Origin: Aquimarina pacifica
GTDB taxonomy: Bacteria; Bacteroidota; Bacteroidia; Flavobacteriales; Flavobacteriaceae
Direction of reading: 5' to 3'
DNA: 64,000 nucleotides
Assembly (NCBI RefSeq): GCF_000520955.1
Contig: NZ_JACC01000035.1
Location: 1-64,000, forward strand
The notes beneath the pieces are model-generated. The model ran no database searches. It saw only the letters and a list, made by a program, of their open reading frames with translations, and was not told the origin of the DNA. Positions 9,642 to 57,096 of the stretch are shown one piece after another. Position numbers and translations under genes: made by a program. The first letter of the stretch is position 1. Each line of letters begins with the position of its first letter.

Positions 9642-12146
9642 ATGGCTAAGAATTTAGTGATTGTAGAGTCGCCTGCTAAGGCCAAAACAATAGAGAAATT
9701 TCTTGGAAAAGATTATAAAGTTGCATCCAGTTTTGGACATATTGCAGACTTACCGGCAAAAGAATTAGGTGTTGATGTTGAAGGGGATTTTAAGCCAAAA
9801 TATATTGTCTCAAGTGATAAGAAAGATGTTGTTAAAAAACTAAAAGATCTTTCTAAGAAAGCAGAAATGGTTTGGCTAGCTAGTGATGAGGACCGTGAAG
9901 GAGAGGCGATTGCATGGCACCTTGCAGAAACTTTAAAACTTGATAAAGAGAAGACACGGCGTATAGTTTTTCATGAGATAACCAAAAATGCGATTCTCAA
10001 AGCAATAGAAAATCCACGTACGATTGATTATAATTTAGTCAATGCACAACAGGCAAGACGAGTTTTGGATCGTTTAGTTGGATATGAATTGTCACCAGTA
10101 CTTTGGCGAAAAGTAAAAGGAGGTTTATCTGCAGGAAGAGTGCAGTCCGTTTCGGTACGCCTAATCGTAGAGCGTGAACGTGATGTGTTAGGTTTTAAAC
10201 CAGAAGCTTCTTATAGGGTAGATGCCGAATTCTCGAATCAAGCAGGGAAAACAGTAAAGGCTAAACTTCCTAAAAACTTTAAAACGAAAGAAGAAGCAGA
10301 AGAATTTTTAAGAAAAAATATAGGAGCTTCTTTTAAAGTAGCTGATCTTACAACAAAACCTGCGAAAAAATCACCAGCACCGCCATTTACAACATCGACA
10401 TTACAACAAGAAGCTTCGAGGAAATTGTATTTTTCTGTAAGTAAAACAATGACCATGGCGCAACGGTTGTATGAAGCGGGATTGATTACGTACATGAGAA
10501 CTGATAGTGTGAATTTATCTGTTGAAGCACAGAAAGGTGCAAAAGCAGAAATTGATTCGGCTTACGGCAGTGAGTATAGTAACCCAAGGCAGTACAAAGG
10601 GAAGTCTAAAGGAGCACAAGAAGCTCATGAAGCTGTTCGTCCTACTGATTTTTCTAGACATTCTATAAATAATTTAGAATATGATCAACAGCGTTTGTAT
10701 GAGTTGATCTGGAAACGGGCTATTGCATCGCAAATGAGTGATGCTAAGCTAGAAAGAACAAATGTTCGCATTGCGGCAAATACACATAAAGAACAATTCA
10801 CCGCTAATGGAGAAGTTATTAAGTTCGAAGGTTTTTTAAAGGTGTATTTAGAGGGTAATGACGATGAAGATGAAGAGCAAGAGGGGATTTTGCCTGCGAT
10901 GAAAGTGCAGGAACCGATGTTTAATAATTACATTTCTGCAACAGAACGATTTACGCGACCACCAGGGCGTTTCACCGAAGCTTCATTGGTAAAAAAATTA
11001 GAGGAATTAGGGATCGGGAGACCTTCTACATACGCGCCAACAATTTCTACGATTCAAAATAGGAAATATGTTGTTAAGGGTTCCAAAGATGGAGAAGAGC
11101 GTAACTATGTGCAGATGATTCTTTCGGGAGATACGATCGAAAAGAAGGATTTGTCAGAAAAAGTAGGTAGCGACAAGGGTAAATTGATTCCTACAGATGT
11201 TGGGATGGTAGTCAATGATTTTCTGGTGAATCATTTTTCTGGAATTCTTGATTATAATTTTACAGCAAAAGTCGAGCAAGATTTTGATGAAATTGCAGAG
11301 GGTCAGGAAGATTGGACTCAGGTAATGAAAACATTTTATGATGAATTTCATCCAAGAGTAGAAGAGGTAGCCCAGAATGCCGAACGAGAAGTAGGAGAGC
11401 GTGTTTTAGGAAAAGACCCTGCAACAGGAAAACCTGTTAGTGTTCGTTTAGGGAAGTTTGGTCCTATGGTTCAAATAGGAAGTGTAGAAGATGAGGATAA
11501 GCCTCGTTTTGCAAGCTTGTCACCTGGACAGACGTTAAGTGGGATTACTTTTGAGGAAGCAATGGATTTATTTCAATTGCCCAAAGAGTTAGGAGAATAT
11601 AAAGGAGAAACTATCATAGTTAATAATGGTAGATTTGGACCCTATGTACGTTTTGGAGAAAAGTTTGTTTCTTTAGAGAAAGGAGAAGATCCATTAAGTA
11701 CATCTTTGGATAGAGCCATAGTGCTTATTGATGCCAAAGAGAAAGCTGATGCACCTATATATACTTATGAGAATCTTCCTGTGCAAAAAGGAACCGGGCG
11801 ATTCGGTCCTTTTATAAAATGGAATGGGATGTTTATCAATGTCAATAAAAAGTATGATTTTGATAACCTTTCAGATACAGATATTGTAACACTTATAGAA
11901 GAAAAGAAGCAAAAAGAAATTGATAAGGTTCTTCATAACTGGGAAGAAGAAGGGATACGTGTAGAAAAGGCAAGATGGGGAAGAAGCAATGTGATAAAAG
12001 GTAAGATTAAAATAGAATTACCTAAAACAGTAGATGCTTCTAAGTTGACACTAGATAAAGTGAAGGCTATAATTGAAAAAAATGCACCTAAGAAAAAACC
12101 CGCAGCAAAAAAGAAGACCACAAAAAAGACAGCTAAAAAGAAATAA
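9642..12146 (+). CDS. topA: DNA topoisomerase I (type IA)
   Basis: This 834-residue enzyme relaxes negative supercoils by transient cleavage of one strand. The TOPRIM domain opens with KNLVIVESPAKAKTIEKFLG and has the metal-binding acidic motif DEDREGEAIAW near residue 85. The active-site tyrosine is in LITYMRTDSVN near residue 284. Several C-terminal repeats of the form GRFGPYVRFG/GRFGPFIKW follow, as in Bacteroidota TopA, and a Lys-rich tail (about the last 25 residues) probably binds DNA. The next gene starts 2 bp after its stop, which suggests cotranscription. Confidence 0.97.
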   Translation: MAKNLVIVESPAKAKTIEKFLGKDYKVASSFGHIADLPAKELGVDVEGDFKPKYIVSSDKKDVVKKLKDLSKKAEMVWLASDEDREGEAIAWHLAETLKLDKEKTRRIVFHEITKNAILKAIENPRTIDYNLVNAQQARRVLDRLVGYELSPVLWRKVKGGLSAGRVQSVSVRLIVERERDVLGFKPEASYRVDAEFSNQAGKTVKAKLPKNFKTKEEAEEFLRKNIGASFKVADLTTKPAKKSPAPPFTTSTLQQEASRKLYFSVSKTMTMAQRLYEAGLITYMRTDSVNLSVEAQKGAKAEIDSAYGSEYSNPRQYKGKSKGAQEAHEAVRPTDFSRHSINNLEYDQQRLYELIWKRAIASQMSDAKLERTNVRIAANTHKEQFTANGEVIKFEGFLKVYLEGNDDEDEEQEGILPAMKVQEPMFNNYISATERFTRPPGRFTEASLVKKLEELGIGRPSTYAPTISTIQNRKYVVKGSKDGEERNYVQMILSGDTIEKKDLSEKVGSDKGKLIPTDVGMVVNDFLVNHFSGILDYNFTAKVEQDFDEIAEGQEDWTQVMKTFYDEFHPRVEEVAQNAEREVGERVLGKDPATGKPVSVRLGKFGPMVQIGSVEDEDKPRFASLSPGQTLSGITFEEAMDLFQLPKELGEYKGETIIVNNGRFGPYVRFGEKFVSLEKGEDPLSTSLDRAIVLIDAKEKADAPIYTYENLPVQKGTGRFGPFIKWNGMFINVNKKYDFDNLSDTDIVTLIEEKKQKEIDKVLHNWEEEGIRVEKARWGRSNVIKGKIKIELPKTVDASKLTLDKVKAIIEKNAPKKKPAAKKKTTKKTAKKK

Positions 12147-47952: not shown

Positions 47953-48028
47953 GTTTTTTGTGCTTTTTTGTTTATTATTGTCTCGTAATTGTACCTCTAA
48001 CTACAAAAGGCACAAAAAATATATAATC

Positions 48029-49156
48029 ATGAATGTAACTTTACGACAGAAAACATTAAAGGACGGCAGACAAAGTTTGTTTTTAGATTATTATTTACCC
48101 AAGGCTAAACAAACTCGAAAAAAAGAAGCCCTTAAATTATATCTCTATCCTAAGCCAAAATCAAAACTAGAGAAAGAGCATAATAAGAAAGTCTCTTTGT
48201 TGGCCGAGAGCATTCGTTCTAAACGTTTATTACAACTTCAGCATGAGGATCATGAGTTTTCACATTTAATATCCAATAAGGATTCAGGTTCGAGTCGAAA
48301 CTTCATTGCCTATTTTAGAGAACTAACCAATAAAAAAATTAACCAACCGGCCACCTATGGAATTTGGAATAGTACATTAAATTATATTATCGATTATACA
48401 GGAGAACGGCAGCTTGGTATTGGAGATATTGATAAGGAATGGGTAGAGGGGTTTAAAAAATACCTTGTAACAGTAGAAGCCTCGGTGGAAGGTACTCCCT
48501 TATCGCTAAATACTTGTCATGTCTATTTTAGTAAGTTTCGATCTTCTTTCAAAAAAGCAGTAAAAGAAAAACTAATCACTCACAACCCTTGTGAAGATGT
48601 AGCACATATCCCAAAAGAAGAAACAGAACGAGAATTCCTGACTTTTGAGGAATTACAATCCGCTTTTAGAACCGAATGCCATCCATTGATTCTAAAAAAG
48701 GCATTTCTATTTAGTTCATTAACAGGGCTGCGAAAATCAGATATTTTAAAAATGAAATGGTCAGAGGTACAACATTCAGAAAATCAAGGGTGGTATATCC
48801 GTTTTACACAAAAGAAAACAAAAGGGGTAGAGACTCTCCCTATTTCAGATGAAGCCAGAGCTTTACTAGGTGAAAAGTCAGGTTTGGACAATCCTGTTTT
48901 TGAGGGGCTTAAATTCGATGGTGCCACATCCATTAAACTTCAACGATGGATGTTACAATCTGGGATTACAAAAATCATTACTTTTCATTGTGCCAGACAT
49001 ACCTATGCTACCCTACAACTGACCTTCGGAACAGATATTTACACCTTATCTAAACTACTAGGGCATAAAACATTACAAACCACCCAGATTTATGCAAAAA
49101 TCATAGATAAAAAGAAAGTAGAGGCAGCAAACAGGATTCCAAATTTGGGAGTATAA
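48029..49156 (+). CDS. Tyrosine recombinase / integrase
   Basis: The start is placed at 48029 (MNVTLRQKTLKDGRQSLFLD), giving 375 residues; an upstream frame from 47960 adds an unlikely N-terminus. The N-terminal part is the arm-type DNA-binding domain usual in Bacteroidota integrases (DYYLPKAKQTRKKEALKLYL). Catalytic residues are Arg in LTGLRKSDILK (~235), HCARHTY (His/Arg ~320-323) and Tyr in TTQIYAKI (~355). It catalyses site-specific integration and excision. It is the leftmost gene of a compact element and points inward. Confidence 0.93.
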   Translation: MNVTLRQKTLKDGRQSLFLDYYLPKAKQTRKKEALKLYLYPKPKSKLEKEHNKKVSLLAESIRSKRLLQLQHEDHEFSHLISNKDSGSSRNFIAYFRELTNKKINQPATYGIWNSTLNYIIDYTGERQLGIGDIDKEWVEGFKKYLVTVEASVEGTPLSLNTCHVYFSKFRSSFKKAVKEKLITHNPCEDVAHIPKEETEREFLTFEELQSAFRTECHPLILKKAFLFSSLTGLRKSDILKMKWSEVQHSENQGWYIRFTQKKTKGVETLPISDEARALLGEKSGLDNPVFEGLKFDGATSIKLQRWMLQSGITKIITFHCARHTYATLQLTFGTDIYTLSKLLGHKTLQTTQIYAKIIDKKKVEAANRIPNLGV

Positions 49157-50606: not shown

Positions 50607-50951
50607 ATGAGCGATTTATTAAAACCATTGTATTCTTTAACTATTGGAGAATACAAAGAATTACAACGAGAAATTTTTAACGAACAAGCAGAAAAGATAT
50701 TAAAAAAGGATAGGACTCAACCTTTAGTAAAAGAAAACAATGACATCATCTTTTTAGAGGAAGTATGTGAAATAACAGGATATACAAAACCAACTTTATA
50801 TTCTAAAATCAGTAGGTACGAAATCCCAGTACTCTCCAGAGGAAAACCACTCACTTTTTCTAAAAAAGACATTATTGATTGGATACATCAGGGAAAGCCT
50901 AATACATTGGATGACCAAGTCAAGGATTATTTAAAATCTAACCCCCTGTAA
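50607..50951 (+). CDS. Excisionase-like HTH protein
   Basis: The 114-residue protein contains a MerR/excisionase-type winged helix, FLEEVCEITGYTKPTLYSKI, then RGKPLTFSKKDIIDWIHQGK. Proteins of this kind in Bacteroidota elements control excision or transcription. It lies 11 bp before the VirE-N-like gene, so the three genes to 53715 are probably one operon. Confidence 0.85.
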   Translation: MSDLLKPLYSLTIGEYKELQREIFNEQAEKILKKDRTQPLVKENNDIIFLEEVCEITGYTKPTLYSKISRYEIPVLSRGKPLTFSKKDIIDWIHQGKPNTLDDQVKDYLKSNPL

Positions 50952-50962
50952 AACGTTGCGTT

Positions 50963-51928
50963 ATGATAACACGAAAGGATATTATAGCCAAGACACATTA
51001 TGGGTTGAAGATATATAGTTATGTTCTTAGAGAATTTAACCCTAATCAAGTGCTAAAAGTTGACCTAAATGGGGATAAACAAATTGTAAACCCATCCAGT
51101 GTAAACCGATGTAAACTAATAGTAAACCCTTTTTTACAATGGGAAGAAGCGAGTCTATCAATTGTCATTGAAAACCGAATTGCAGTTTACAAAGACTTGA
51201 TGGATACTTCTTTTTATGGAGATCCATTTGATTTTGCACAATTGTATTTTAAAGAGGATAGTGAATATGAATTATTAAAACGTATTAATGAAGTCCTTCA
51301 TTTAACAATAGCGTCTAAACCTTCAGAATATGAACAAAATAATCAGCACGTTACAACACTTCTAGATACAATACCAGATCATCGTATCATACCAAAATTT
51401 AGTTACTTCCATAGAAATCTTTTTAACCTCTATCCTAATGAAAGTTTAGACATTCCAAAAACCTATGAAATGATAAGGCACCCTATTCGAAAATACAAAA
51501 CAGAAAAGCTACGAAGTTTGGGTGCTGCCCAACAAAAAATATTCAAAAGACAGAATTTTGATTATGTCACCTTTTCAGGAACTTTTACCAAGCGTGCTAA
51601 CAACTCTTTAATCAAACATTCTAACTTATTAACAGTGGACATTGATGATGTACAAGATCAAAGTCGATTGGAAGAAATAAAAGAAATACTATTACATGAC
51701 CCGTATTTTCCTACCGAGTTATTATTTGTTTCTCCCAGAGGAAACGGATTAAAGTGGGTTGTTGAAATCTCATTAAAAGAGGTATCTCATGGAGATTATT
51801 TTACAGCAATCAGCAAGTATTTAAAACAAACCTATACAATAGAGATAGATACCCATGGAGAAGATGTTGCCAGAGCTTGTTTATTACCTTATGACCCCAA
51901 TGCCTATATCCACCCTAAATATACCTAA
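50963..51928 (+). CDS. BT4734/VirE N-terminal domain protein, primase-like
   Basis: The 321-residue protein has the conserved core KYKTEKLRSLGAAQQKIFKR, then VTFSGTFTKRANNSLIKHSN, LLTVDIDD, LLFVSPRGNGLKWVVEI and DTHGEDVARACLLPYDPNAY. This pattern is the BT4734-like / VirE-N domain found fused or adjacent to DUF3987 proteins. The LLTVDIDD and SPRGNGLKW motifs are like those of archaeo-eukaryotic primase-type polymerases. Its stop codon shares a base with the next ATG (TAATG), showing translational coupling. Confidence 0.85.
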   Translation: MITRKDIIAKTHYGLKIYSYVLREFNPNQVLKVDLNGDKQIVNPSSVNRCKLIVNPFLQWEEASLSIVIENRIAVYKDLMDTSFYGDPFDFAQLYFKEDSEYELLKRINEVLHLTIASKPSEYEQNNQHVTTLLDTIPDHRIIPKFSYFHRNLFNLYPNESLDIPKTYEMIRHPIRKYKTEKLRSLGAAQQKIFKRQNFDYVTFSGTFTKRANNSLIKHSNLLTVDIDDVQDQSRLEEIKEILLHDPYFPTELLFVSPRGNGLKWVVEISLKEVSHGDYFTAISKYLKQTYTIEIDTHGEDVARACLLPYDPNAYIHPKYT

Positions 51929-53715
51929 TGATACAAAGATTTGATCCTAAAAAATATTTGAATACCGATAAGAATGCTAACATGAATATTGTTTCTGATT
52001 CCATTGAATCAAACCGCTATAGTTCTAATGAGACATTAGAAGTTGTTCAGAGGATTATTGGAGCATTGGAAATGAAAGGTATTGACCTTACTTCCAATTA
52101 TGAAGATTGGCTAAAAATTGGTTTTGCACTTGCAGATGAATTTGGGCAAAATGGAACATCATTGTTTCACAGGGTAAGTAAAAATTATCCCGGCTATGAG
52201 TATAAAGCCTGTCAAAAACAATATGAACACTGTCTAAAAAGTAAGCGCACAGGCGTCACTCTGGGAACCTTCTTTCATTTAGCAAAACAAGCAGGAGTCG
52301 ATTTAAAACGAAAAAAGAATAGGTCTCTGGATTATACCTTGCCTACAGCGTCTTCCAACACAGAAGAAATGGTTGTAGCTAAAAAAACATTGGCTACATT
52401 TCCTGATTTTATTTTTGAACAAATACCACGTTTATTGCAAGATGTGGTGGTTTGCGCTAAAACTGATACAGAGAAAGATATTCTTTTTTTAGGTGCATTA
52501 ACCACGATGAGTGCATGCCTGCCCAATGTTTACGGGATTTATGATCAATATACGGTATATCCTAATTTGTTCTTGTTCATTACTGCTCCAGCTTCTTCTG
52601 GCAAAGGGAGAGTAAATCTGTGTAGAAGGTTGGTACAATCTATTCATACGGTAAAACGTGATACTACGATGGCTGATAAAGCGCAATATCAAATAGATTT
52701 AGCTGCTTATCGATCCAAAAAAAAGAAGGATGCTTTAGCCATCAAACCATCTAAACCCCCAGAGCAAATGCTTTTTATTCCTGCCAATAATAGTGCTACG
52801 GGTACATTTCAGTTATTAGCCGAAAATAATGGAGAAGGGTTGATTTTTGAAACTGAAGGAGACACACTGGCACAGACTTTTAAAAGTGAATACGGTAATT
52901 ATAGTGATGGATTTAGAAAAGCTTTTCATCATGAAGCTATTAGTTATTATCGAAGAACGGATAGTGAATATATAGATATTCCTTGTCCTAAAATATCTAC
53001 AGTCCTAACAGGTACACCCGATCAGGTGCTTGCCTTAATGCCTGATTCAGAAAATGGATTATTCAGTCGATTTATATTCTACCATATGAAACGCCAAAAG
53101 CAATGGCGTAATGTATTTGCTGATTCAAAACAAGAAAGTTTAGACATTACTTTTGATCGGTTAGGGCAACAATTTCATAGGTGTTACAATACATTATGCA
53201 CCTATAGTGAAGGAATTCAGATTACCTTACAAAAGGAACAAGAAGATCGTTTTCATGATTTTTTTAGTAAACAATATGACAAGTTCCTGTTTTTACAAAA
53301 GAATGGTTTAGAAGCCTCCTTACTAAGATTAGGCTTGATTTGTTATCGAATAGCCATGATTTTGACAGTACTTAGAATGTCAGAAGAGGGTAATATTACC
53401 AATTGCAGAACATGTAGTGATTCTGATTTTGAAGTGGCACTGCGTATGATTACCATTTTATTAGCACATACCGAACATGTTTTTTTGCACTTACCGGAAC
53501 CCAAACGAGTACTACCACGTCAAAAAAATCATAAAGAACGTTTTTTGGATCAGTTACCAATACGTTTCTCTACTCAGGAATTTAAGAGGATTTCTGATAC
53601 TATGAATATTGCTTCCAAGAGTGCAGAACGGTATATTAAGGAATTTATAGAGAAAGGATACTTGCAAAGAGTTGCCCAGGGGGAGTACAAAAATATTTTA
53701 AAAAAGGACACCTGA
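51928..53715 (+). CDS. PriCT-2/DUF3987 replication protein (primase-helicase-like)
   Basis: The 595-residue protein has an N-terminal PriCT-2-like domain (~28-125: IIGALEMKGIDLTSNYEDWL, GFALADEFG, KQYEHCLKS, GTFFHLAKQAGVDL). A DUF3987 ATPase-like domain follows, with the P-loop APASSGKGRV (~221-230) and EGDTLAQTFKSEYGNYSDGF. A C-terminal HTH-like region is seen in KISDTMN-like RISDTMNIASKSAERYIKEF. Together with the upstream protein it probably primes or unwinds DNA for element replication. Its TGA stop lies inside the first of four 9-bp iteron-like repeats. Confidence 0.85.
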   Translation: MIQRFDPKKYLNTDKNANMNIVSDSIESNRYSSNETLEVVQRIIGALEMKGIDLTSNYEDWLKIGFALADEFGQNGTSLFHRVSKNYPGYEYKACQKQYEHCLKSKRTGVTLGTFFHLAKQAGVDLKRKKNRSLDYTLPTASSNTEEMVVAKKTLATFPDFIFEQIPRLLQDVVVCAKTDTEKDILFLGALTTMSACLPNVYGIYDQYTVYPNLFLFITAPASSGKGRVNLCRRLVQSIHTVKRDTTMADKAQYQIDLAAYRSKKKKDALAIKPSKPPEQMLFIPANNSATGTFQLLAENNGEGLIFETEGDTLAQTFKSEYGNYSDGFRKAFHHEAISYYRRTDSEYIDIPCPKISTVLTGTPDQVLALMPDSENGLFSRFIFYHMKRQKQWRNVFADSKQESLDITFDRLGQQFHRCYNTLCTYSEGIQITLQKEQEDRFHDFFSKQYDKFLFLQKNGLEASLLRLGLICYRIAMILTVLRMSEEGNITNCRTCSDSDFEVALRMITILLAHTEHVFLHLPEPKRVLPRQKNHKERFLDQLPIRFSTQEFKRISDTMNIASKSAERYIKEFIEKGYLQRVAQGEYKNILKKDT

Positions 53716-53748
53716 GGTTTTTGAGGTTTCTGAGGTTTTTGAGGTTTT
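53713..53748 (+). repeat. Iteron-like cluster, four TGAGGTTT(T/C) units
   Basis: Four 9-bp units beginning TGAGGTTT start at 53713, 53722, 53731 and 53740, exactly 9 bp apart. The first overlaps the stop codon of the DUF3987 gene. The block is followed by GGTTATT, which also follows the central repeat at 53926. Confidence 0.8.
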
Positions 53749-53905
53749 GGTTATTTTACATGCTCCAAAAACGGCATTTATAGCGCTCATGTCAAAAAAA
53801 AAATATAATGCAAAATACTTAAAAATAAGGTTTTTATGATTAAATACACATATGTTTTCCATTGAAATAACTCTTCCTAAATCTCAAACCAGAACTACAT
53901 TGCCG

Positions 53906-53934
53906 AAAACCTCAAAACCTCAAACTGAGGTTTT
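53906..53934. repeat. Central inverted copies of the 9-bp repeat
   Basis: Two AAAACCTCA copies (53906-53914 and 53914-53922, sharing one base) are followed after 3 bp by TGAGGTTTT (53926-53934). The last two form a perfect 9-bp hairpin with a 3-nt loop. Confidence 0.75.
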
Positions 53935-54126
53935 GGTTATTAAATAAGTAACTTCAGGTATTTAGATGCATTTTCCTTGGTGGCAACTCTGAATAGGTAG
54001 AAGTCTGTTTTGCATGTATCTAATTGATTTTAAGTTTTTTGAAACCAAATTAACATGTGTTAATGTAGGTTTAATTAGGTTCAAAATATATTTTTTGTAG
54101 ATCTGTATACTCCAGAAATTACGATC

Positions 54127-54194
54127 AAAACCTCAGAAACCTCAGAAACCTCAAAAACCTCACCTTTCTCTTTTTGAGGTTTTTTTGAGGTATA
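54127..54194 (-). repeat. Right iteron-like cluster in inverse orientation
   Basis: Four units (A/G)AAACCTCA start at 54127, 54136, 54145 and 54154, again at exact 9-bp spacing. Two forward units follow at 54175 and 54186 (the second imperfect). The four-unit block is the mirror of the left cluster. Confidence 0.8.
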
Positions 54195-54781: not shown

Positions 54782-55334
54782 AATACATTCTTTGGTTTTA
54801 AAAGTGGTCTAGGGTAAAGTTACAATTCTTTTGAAGTCTAAAAACAATCAAAAACGTATGACGGTATTTTTCAGTTTTAGTAAAAAAAGCGGTGCCACAA
54901 AAAAAATACACACCTACCCATGGGGTGTGTATTCTGTTGATTAGCTTAAAATAAAGAGGTTACTACTAGGTAAACAAGTGAGAATAGCTATGAATTAAGA
55001 AGAGGATGCTACAGAAAAACAATGATTGTTATAAAAATAGGGATGTGTTTTCTTAAATATACATGGCATCCCCTAGTGTATATTCTGTTTATTAGTTTAA
55101 CATCACGTAAGTCCTATTGCAAATGAACAAGGGGCATAGTTGTTTTTATAATTTAGAAAAAGAATCAATTGCGTAAACTATTCGCTTATATAAAATAGGC
55201 ATGTCCTACACATTGTATTCCTGTATTATTAATTTTTTTTGAAATAATGTATTTAAGAAAGTCATGTCAAATCGTAAAAAATATTAAAATGCGGCTTAAT
55301 TATAATTTGTACCAAATTTATTAGGTAATCCAGA
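54782..55334. other. 553-bp non-coding stretch with degenerate long repeats
   Basis: No gene is seen. A hairpin with 10-bp arms AATACACACC/GGTGTGTATT lies at 54905-54933. Three degenerate 35-40-bp segments, at about 54911, 55062 and 55198, share the core GT(G)TAT-TCTGTTGATTAG-like sequence at roughly 135-150-bp spacing. Confidence 0.45.
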
Positions 55335-56200
55335 ATGACACGCAACTTTTCCTTATAACACGAACTTAACTTTTCACTATAGGGATGACACGTAACTCTT
55401 TCTTATAACACTGACTTGACTTTTCTCTATAGGAATGACACGCAACTCTTCCTTATAGCGCTGACCTGACTTTTTTCTATAGGAATGACACGTAACTCTT
55501 CCTTATAGCACTGACCTAACTTTTCCCTATCGGAATGACACGCAACTTTTCCTTATAACACTGACCTAACTTTTCACTATAGGGATGACACGCAACTCTT
55601 CCTTATAGCACTGACCTGACTTTTTTCTATAGGAATGACACGTAACTCTTTCTTATAACACTGACCTAACTTTTCCCTGTAGGAATGACACGCAGCTCTT
55701 TCTTATAACACTGACCTAACTTTTCTCTATAGGGATGACACGCAAGTCTTCCTTATAGCACTGACCTCACTTTTCTCTATAGGAATGACACGCAACTCTT
55801 TCCTATAACACTGACCTAACTTTTCTCTATAGGGATGACACGTAACTTTTCCTTATAACACTGACCCAACTTTTCTCTATAGGGATGACACGCAACTCTT
55901 CCTTATAGCACTGACCTGACTTTTTTCTATAGGAATGACACGTAACTCTTCCTTATAACACTGACCTAACTTTTCCCTGTAGGAATGACACGCAGCTCTT
56001 TCTTATAACACTGACCTAACTTTTCTCTATAGGGATGACACGCAAGTCTTCCTTATAGCACTGACCTCACTTTTCTCTATAGGAATGACACGCAACTCTT
56101 TCTTATAACACTGACCTAACTTTTCTCTATAGGGATGACACGTAACTCTTCCTTATAGCACTGACCTAACTTTTCCCTATAGGGATGACATGTAGCTCTT
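55335..56200 (+). repeat. 50-bp tandem repeat array, 17 full copies plus a partial one
   Basis: Units begin ATGACACG at 55335 and every 50 bp to 56135. A truncated eighteenth copy starts at 56185 and fades after about 16 bp. A typical unit runs ATGACACG(C/T)AACTCTT, then CCTTATA(A/G)CACTGACCTA, then ACTTTTCTCTATAGG(A/G). Units differ at a few fixed positions and have no spacers, so this is not CRISPR. The 300-bp block 55585-55884 is repeated at 55885-56184 with only about six differences by eye. All frames are interrupted by stops (TGA, TAG, TAA), so it is non-coding. Within a unit TTCC(T)TATAG and CTATAGGAA can pair. Confidence 0.95.
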
Positions 56201-56865
56201 ACTAGCCTTTGTGTGAATTATACTACTAAAAACAATAAACTATCATTGCACAAAGTTCTGGGTTTAAGACCCTCTCTGTATCCATAGCGGACTCGTGGGG
56301 AACTATTCCTCCAATATATCCCAATACTCCTATATAGGAAGTGGTGAATTAGGGAAATGTTCTTCTATTTGTTTTAAACAGAAACAAACGTTTACAAATG
56401 AATAATAGTTGTGTAGTCTATTGTTTAAGTTTATCATCTGTAATAAAAAAGTTGTGGATCTATTCACCAAACCTTTACGGCCTGATATGCATTTATTTTC
56501 GCATTGAACATAAAGATCTAGTTTTATAAAAATCCAAAGTAACTTCCTTAAATCTAATTATATGTTAAAAATATATACCTGCTGAAAAATCTTCTCCAAT
56601 CAGTTTTAAATTAGTTAGAGGAATATATTTAAAATTATTTTCGTACCGATTTTGATGTAGTAATTTATACCCCCTATAAATTGGAATAACCCAGTATGAT
56701 AGCGTTTGCATAGTTTACAAATAAATAGAAAAAATATATATGTAACACCTTGGTATATTACCATTACAAAAAGTGCTATTTAATACTTATTTTAGACGTA
56801 TCTTTCAATTAAACAATCTCCTTTAGAAAGGGGTTTAGCCATCTTCACTATTTAAACCAAGAAAT
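56201..56865. other. 665-bp gap right of the tandem array
   Basis: No gene is seen. It contains the candidate right attachment repeat at 56264-56275. The following AT-rich stretch (56380-56860) probably includes the promoter of the small-gene cluster, but no full consensus was found. Confidence 0.45.
56264..56275. repeat. Candidate right attachment repeat
   Basis: TTAAGACCCTCT matches the copy at 47941-47952. It lies 64 bp after the tandem array, in a sequence (GTTCTGGGTTTAAGACCC and onward to TATCCA) that faintly resembles a tRNA T-arm end but lacks a recognisable tRNA body. Confidence 0.35.
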
Positions 56866-57096
56866 ATGAACACAAAAAAAAGGGAAAGAGCATCATCTGA
56901 TTTCGTAAAAACTGAACTGAAAAAATTAACACATTTGAAAATAGAAAGCGAACCACTCTACAAAAATATGTGGGTAAAAGGAGCGTTGGTTGTTGCCAGT
57001 ATATACGGGCTAATGTTTGTTTCTAAATATTTTATTAGCCAGTATGCCGATTTAATTACAGCAACCAAAAAATTACGCAATGCAAAACGACTATAG
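56866..57096 (+). CDS. Small single-pass membrane protein
   Basis: The 76-residue protein has a basic, charged N-terminal half and one transmembrane helix (GALVVASIYGLMFVSKYF, ~39-56), ending KKLRNAKRL. No family was recognised. It is the first of four closely spaced small plus-strand frames. Confidence 0.6.
   Translation: MNTKKRERASSDFVKTELKKLTHLKIESEPLYKNMWVKGALVVASIYGLMFVSKYFISQYADLITATKKLRNAKRL

Follow-up and report, generated by a model that had tools for sequence, protein, structure and literature searches.

The window, the whole stretch of 64,000 nucleotides of Aquimarina pacifica DNA that we analysed, carries the genes of an integrated element followed by a tandem array, which we refer to as the CTATAGG array, and a small ORF, F1 (Table 1). 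The strand given for the array is the one that reads CTATAGG...AACTTTT. The initial annotation had placed the array at the end of an integrated element. Its association with integrated elements was supported, but the word "end" is only loosely right, since the DUF3987 gene and F1 lie on either side of it.

Table 1. Features of the element and its array in the window.
Feature	Position	Strand	Basis
Tyrosine recombinase (integrase)	47960..49156	+	
HTH_17 protein (excisionase-like)	50607..50951	+	
BT4734-like (VirE-N) protein	50963..51928	+	
PriCT-2/DUF3987 protein (primase/helicase-like) of the element	51928..53715	+	
Candidate origin: TGAGGTTTT in four copies (53713-53749) and inverted in another four (54126-54162)	53713..54162	.	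TRF, repeat inspection
Tandem array, 17.2 x 50 bp, ~34 half-units in all, with alpha (26 bp) and beta (24 bp) in alternation	55333..56190	+	TRF, half-unit split
Six-unit block, copy 1	55585..55884	+	Unit comparison
Six-unit block, copy 2 (6 differences)	55885..56184	+	Unit comparison
Degenerate remnant of the 119-bp module, palindrome AATTTATA-CCCCC-TATAAATT	56622..56727	.	Weak match, 17.7 and 14.3 bits on the two strands
F1, 76-aa small protein, likely transmembrane helix (by eye)	56866..57096	+	

TRF reported a period of 50 with 88% matches, 0% indels and a score of 1303, bearing out the exact period, the roughly 17 copies and the lack of insertions noted initially. The duplicated six-unit block was also confirmed, the two copies differing at exactly 6 of 300 positions, and neighbouring units are indeed more divergent than this, with an average of 6.0 differences per 50 positions between adjacent units. 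When the order of the units was shuffled 20,000 times, the best lag similarity was equalled three times and a near-identical six-unit block was never reproduced. The proposed growth by unequal exchange of whole blocks is supported. The 50-mer is in turn a dimer of a ~25-bp repeat, as becomes apparent when the array is split at TATA, and the alignment score between alpha and beta was equalled in 30 of 20,000 shuffles. The hierarchy of the array is ~25, 50 and 300 bp, which corrects the view of a 50-bp unit.

In agreement with the first reading, the array DNA is non-coding, with a longest open stretch of 41 codons and many stops that close all six frames. A CRISPR-like array was rejected, as the units are contiguous and without unique spacers. 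Two structural suggestions fared less well. The weak hairpin proposed for each unit was not supported by 100-nt folds, five of which gave z values between -0.65 and +0.66 and the sixth -2.6. As for the idea that 50 bp corresponds to five helical turns, homologous arrays have monomers of 23, 24, 25, 26 and 28 bp and dimers of 49-53 bp, so a 50-bp phasing with the helix does not hold generally.

Comparison of ~160 units from nine arrays revealed a strongly conserved core of ~21 bp, AA[CG]T-W-TT-YNY-TATA-[GA][GC]RR-TGA, and a linker between TGA and AA[CG]T that varies by up to 5 bp. This combination of a conserved core and a length-variable linker resembles a repeated, putative protein-binding core. 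A weak dyad is centred on CTATAG, where 3.3-4.9 of 9 outer pairs match, compared with 2.3 elsewhere. In homologous arrays, alpha measures 26 or 28 bp and beta 23-25 bp, and a third type of half-unit, gamma (26 bp, e.g. CTATAGGAGTGAGCTACAACTTTTCC), is also found; the composite arrays (C6, L028, L030, L087 and L095) have alpha-beta in their first part and gamma in their second.

A sequence-only model of the dimer detected the array family in 19 of 66 Aquimarina genomes, including one (G030) with a single weak match; homologous loci come, among others, from G014, G063 and G025, which match A. latercula DSM 2041, sp. AU58 and sp. RZ0, respectively. In other genera of a 397-genome family sample the same model gave two marginal single matches, none convincing, and we found no match by BLAST of the array against plasmids and phages or by searching IMG/VR viral contigs with two exact patterns. 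Within the samples searched, the family is thus restricted to Aquimarina. A literature search on tandem repeats in this genus gave nothing relevant, in line with the initial annotation, which knew of no described function. The family comprises about 30 arrays, several of which stop at contig ends, as expected of repeats. Apart from arrays in other or decayed settings (L032, L082, L083 and L091), they occur mainly in two contexts, types A and B, with the same orientation relative to the genes in both. The array of the window is a member of a genus-restricted family that occurs in fixed orientation in two otherwise unrelated mobile elements, usually near a conserved 119-bp module.

Type A elements, to which the window belongs, have the order VirE-N, PriCT-2/DUF3987, array, F1 and then opposite-strand cargo, consisting of an Rhs-like protein in the window and of effector-like or other genes at other loci. 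F1 was found downstream of 13 arrays, and at several type A loci the array is preceded by repeated ATACACATCCCGAT-like motifs. Some loci keep the array and F1 without DUF3987; DUF3987 elements without an array also exist, so the array is dispensable for that element class.

One reading of the array is that it represents the replication origin of the element, its units acting as iterons bound by an element-encoded initiator. Consistent with this, oriented tandem sites of ~25 bp lie in non-coding DNA beside PriCT-2/DUF3987 in type A (only indirectly in type B), type B elements have a helicase and a DnaA domain IV-like protein, and the iteron origins of PLE and SGI1 sit in such non-coding regions (PMC7145576, PMC7433901). 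However, the 9-bp repeats TGAGGTTTT lie directly 3' of the DUF3987 gene of the window, with inverted copies ~375 bp further on, and a short-repeat cluster is found directly 3' of the gene in most DUF3987 loci, whether the array is present or not (absent or not significant in L108, weak in L107, L114 and L099). This is the origin position known from PICI and SGI1: in the PICI/SaPI replication module, integrase, HTH and primase-like genes are followed by repeats directly 3' (PMC6092414), and SGI1 has a repeat-containing iteron oriV just 3' of rep (PMC7433901). The repeats of the window likewise flank a spacer directly 3' of the primase/rep gene, as in most DUF3987 loci, whereas the CTATAGG array is further downstream, outside the PICI layout. 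Since the 3' cluster matches both the PICI layout and the SGI1 oriV, the array probably does not serve as the primary origin, and by this analogy the separate 9-bp repeats are the more likely origin of the element. Moreover, the array is common to both element types and the replication genes are not, no conserved exact DnaA box was found beside the arrays (TTATCTACA, with one mismatch, is conserved in type B only), and the array is less AT-rich than its AT-rich flanks. We therefore consider an origin function of the array itself unlikely. In Vibrio cholerae, PLE likewise carries several families of repeats in non-coding DNA, and one of these families is the origin iteron (PMC7145576); the likeness lies in the repeat-rich non-coding region, whereas sequences and proteins are unrelated and the PLE initiator is a RepA_N protein.

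Type B elements have the order F8, F9, F14, array, giant methylase and Strawberry-notch helicase, followed by AAA_5, DUF7192, a DnaA domain IV-like protein (an assignment below the Pfam cut-off) and an A32/Zot-like ATPase. The methylase has 1,300-2,000 aa and an Eco57I/N6 methylase domain. The array lies just upstream of its start codon at all nine close methylase loci, one of which (L163) is at a contig start, the distance being 35-50 bp where measured; no array was found at the 11 distant methylase homologues with upstream sequence. The non-coding DNA 5' of the array is 81-93% identical across loci, and a near-invariant block of ~105 bp with two copies of ACTCCCGCTACAAGGAG directly precedes the array. 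Repeat clusters of unrelated sequence are present upstream of three distant methylase homologues (z 16, 30 and 11.5; most controls below 2); at L158, L159 and L161 such short repeats (AACGCTGAATCAGC, ATGGCATATCC and TATAGACAGCA) stand where type B has the CTATAGG array. Unrelated clusters at the same place suggest that a repeat cluster there is normal in the methylase family despite the differing sequence. The GGAAAACAT repeats of L105/L106 were compared with those upstream of the L159 methylase, but on inspection the motifs differed. In one genome (G054), a contig carrying a methylase homologue has ~30 copies of a 121-bp repeat (L169, 481-4098), which could be coding.

These arrangements bear on two further possibilities. 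The boundary role suggested initially is unlikely, since the type B array is internal to its element and directly upstream of the methylase gene. The array might instead be transcribed, as a repetitive non-coding RNA or as an mRNA leader; because it ends so close to the methylase start in type B, a transcript beginning upstream would contain it. Yet an Rfam search of the array and its flanks gave no match and, in five of six folds, predicted folding was no better than that of shuffles, and we regard this explanation as highly unlikely.

Near most arrays we found a second conserved sequence, a module of 119-121 bp with nearly fixed internal spacing (TTTTTTACTAC[AG]GTTT-N6/7-TTAATTTATAGGGGGTATAAATTGGGAA ... 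TTACGCAACGATAG). In type B it precedes the array by 310-350 bp, whereas at most type A loci it follows the array at ~275-560 bp and is roughly 220-280 bp before F1; the order of array and module thus differs between the types. The module model gave strong matches in 16 of 19 array-bearing genomes and in none of the 47 others (Fisher p 1e-12), and one weak match in G002 (E 1.5e-4). Twenty of the 22 strong matches were linked to an array, in one case with a transposase-like gene inserted in between, and the other two were on contigs outside the linkage check; as the module was found beside arrays and its model built from those copies, this linked count is partly by construction, whereas the absence from 47 genomes is not. 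Outside the genus, the family sample gave marginal matches only. Matches to R2 in L166-L168 were taken as chance, being apparently in coding DNA. In L030, a transposase-like ORF of 513 aa (9710-11251) is inserted between array and module. In the remnant of the window, the central five bases of the palindrome are inverted relative to its homologues.

Array and palindromic module could also form a recombination junction, serving as a site of cargo exchange or cassette insertion. Type A arrays do separate the replication module from variable cargo, the palindrome with its centre of 5 bp is reminiscent of the core site of a tyrosine recombinase, and in L091 and L092 the array has a module copy on each side. 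However, most loci have a single copy, the type B array is internal and without cargo, and the window contains no convincing att pair or element-end repeats, all of which make such a junction very unlikely.

Information on the turnover of the array came from a second array in the same genome as the window (C6), which lies inside a ~104-kb block (G000:C6:100938-204821; L009/L035/L036 and neighbours). Outside the array this block is ~99.99% identical to A. latercula, and it differs at both ends; in topA the two genomes share only 77% identity. This looks like a very recent interspecies transfer, or cross-contamination of the assemblies. By eye, the island carries metal-efflux-like and VgrG/effector-like genes. 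A serine-recombinase-like gene lies near its right end, and its left junction shows what looks like the 3' end of a tRNA. The sequence is free of mismatches over 9.3 kb on the left side of the array and 9.9 kb on the right, but the two versions of the array have 9 and 1 exact gamma copies. The C6 array thus travelled with a genomic island, unless one assembly is contaminated, and in this one pair compared the copy number changes faster than the surroundings, unless one assembly is collapsed or contaminated. Such a difference in otherwise identical DNA, as well as the concerted evolution within arrays and their hierarchical duplication, would also be expected of a neutral minisatellite that grows by slippage and unequal exchange and simply rides on mobile elements. 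We find this quite unlikely, given that the core is kept across divergent elements in fixed orientation, that the distance to the methylase start is fixed, and that the array co-occurs tightly with the independent 119-bp module.

Instead, we favour the reading, with a probability of about 0.45, that the array is a multi-copy cis-acting, iteron- or operator-like putative binding site with a regulatory or replication-control role in two mobile-element families; that it belongs to mobile elements is far more certain. The evidence for it includes the kept core with its variable linker length, the fixed place of the array in types A and B, the co-occurrence of the module, the similar non-coding DNA 5' of the type B array and the unrelated repeat clusters at distant methylase homologues. 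Points that weigh against it are the differing order of array and module in the two types, the degenerate module of the window and the DUF3987 elements that lack an array. The ~34 copies of a ~21-bp recognition-type core, separated by short linkers, would be bound cooperatively by a protein, and array and module would act as a control region (operator or enhancer), possibly coupled to replication or transfer, for the neighbouring genes of the element: F1 (type A) or the methylase operon (type B). Unequal exchange would both make and maintain the array. As for the protein binding and the partition or origin role suggested initially, a repeated binding site of the partition, origin or regulatory kind is plausible and an origin role is possible, but the 3' DUF3987 repeats are a better origin candidate in type A. 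Plasmid partition sites of the parC and parS types can be tandem repeats. The array resembles them in its tandem, oriented sites of ~20 bp in a non-coding region beside element genes, and differs in its 17-34 copies with hierarchical duplication; no ParA/ParM or centromere-binding genes were recognised among the part of the array neighbours scanned.

The retention of one site in both element types makes it probable that a single DNA-binding protein, or homologous ones, act on them, by analogy with SGI1, which answers to the AcaCD activator of its IncC helper plasmid through a shared helper-satellite site (PMC7433901). In both cases a cis-acting control sequence is common to an integrative element and one unrelated to it, and both SGI1 and the window's element have an HTH_17 gene and a rep gene (here DUF3987) with repeats just 3'. 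The Aquimarina array, however, has far more copies, no AcaCD-like factor was recognised, and a helper relation is hypothetical here. Among the gene families around the arrays, we recognised neither a binding protein nor a family clearly common to types A and B; F3, which is regulator-like, and the DnaA domain IV-like protein of type B are the first candidates for the binding protein. When otherwise unrelated mobile elements have repeated cis-acting sites in common, shared control or parasitism is often the reason, and the idea of one element class exploiting the other is attractive but hypothetical. The recurrence of the array, usually with the module, in both kinds of element suggests that they carry a common, previously undescribed control site. 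A bolder proposal, that through this new two-part site a protein of the methylase/Strawberry-notch element activates or mobilises DUF3987 elements with their toxin/effector cargo, as a new helper-satellite pair in Bacteroidota, is speculative and improbable. In any case, array and module provide a genus-specific, easily searched marker of a possible link between elements in marine Bacteroidota, and the array is a defined DNA bait for finding the protein involved.

Finally, NBU1-type mobilizable elements of Bacteroides are integrative elements that have an integrase, a primase gene and small HTH proteins. The window's element has the same gene set, a likeness that we treat as a lead, although no mobilization protein was recognised in it, and we know of no comparable array described for NBU1-type elements. 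Within Aquimarina, L171, L172 and L174 carry distant F1 homologues after a ~709-aa primase-like gene and a ~117-aa ORF, with an HTH gene also present in L172 and L174, and represent a related element type without the array.
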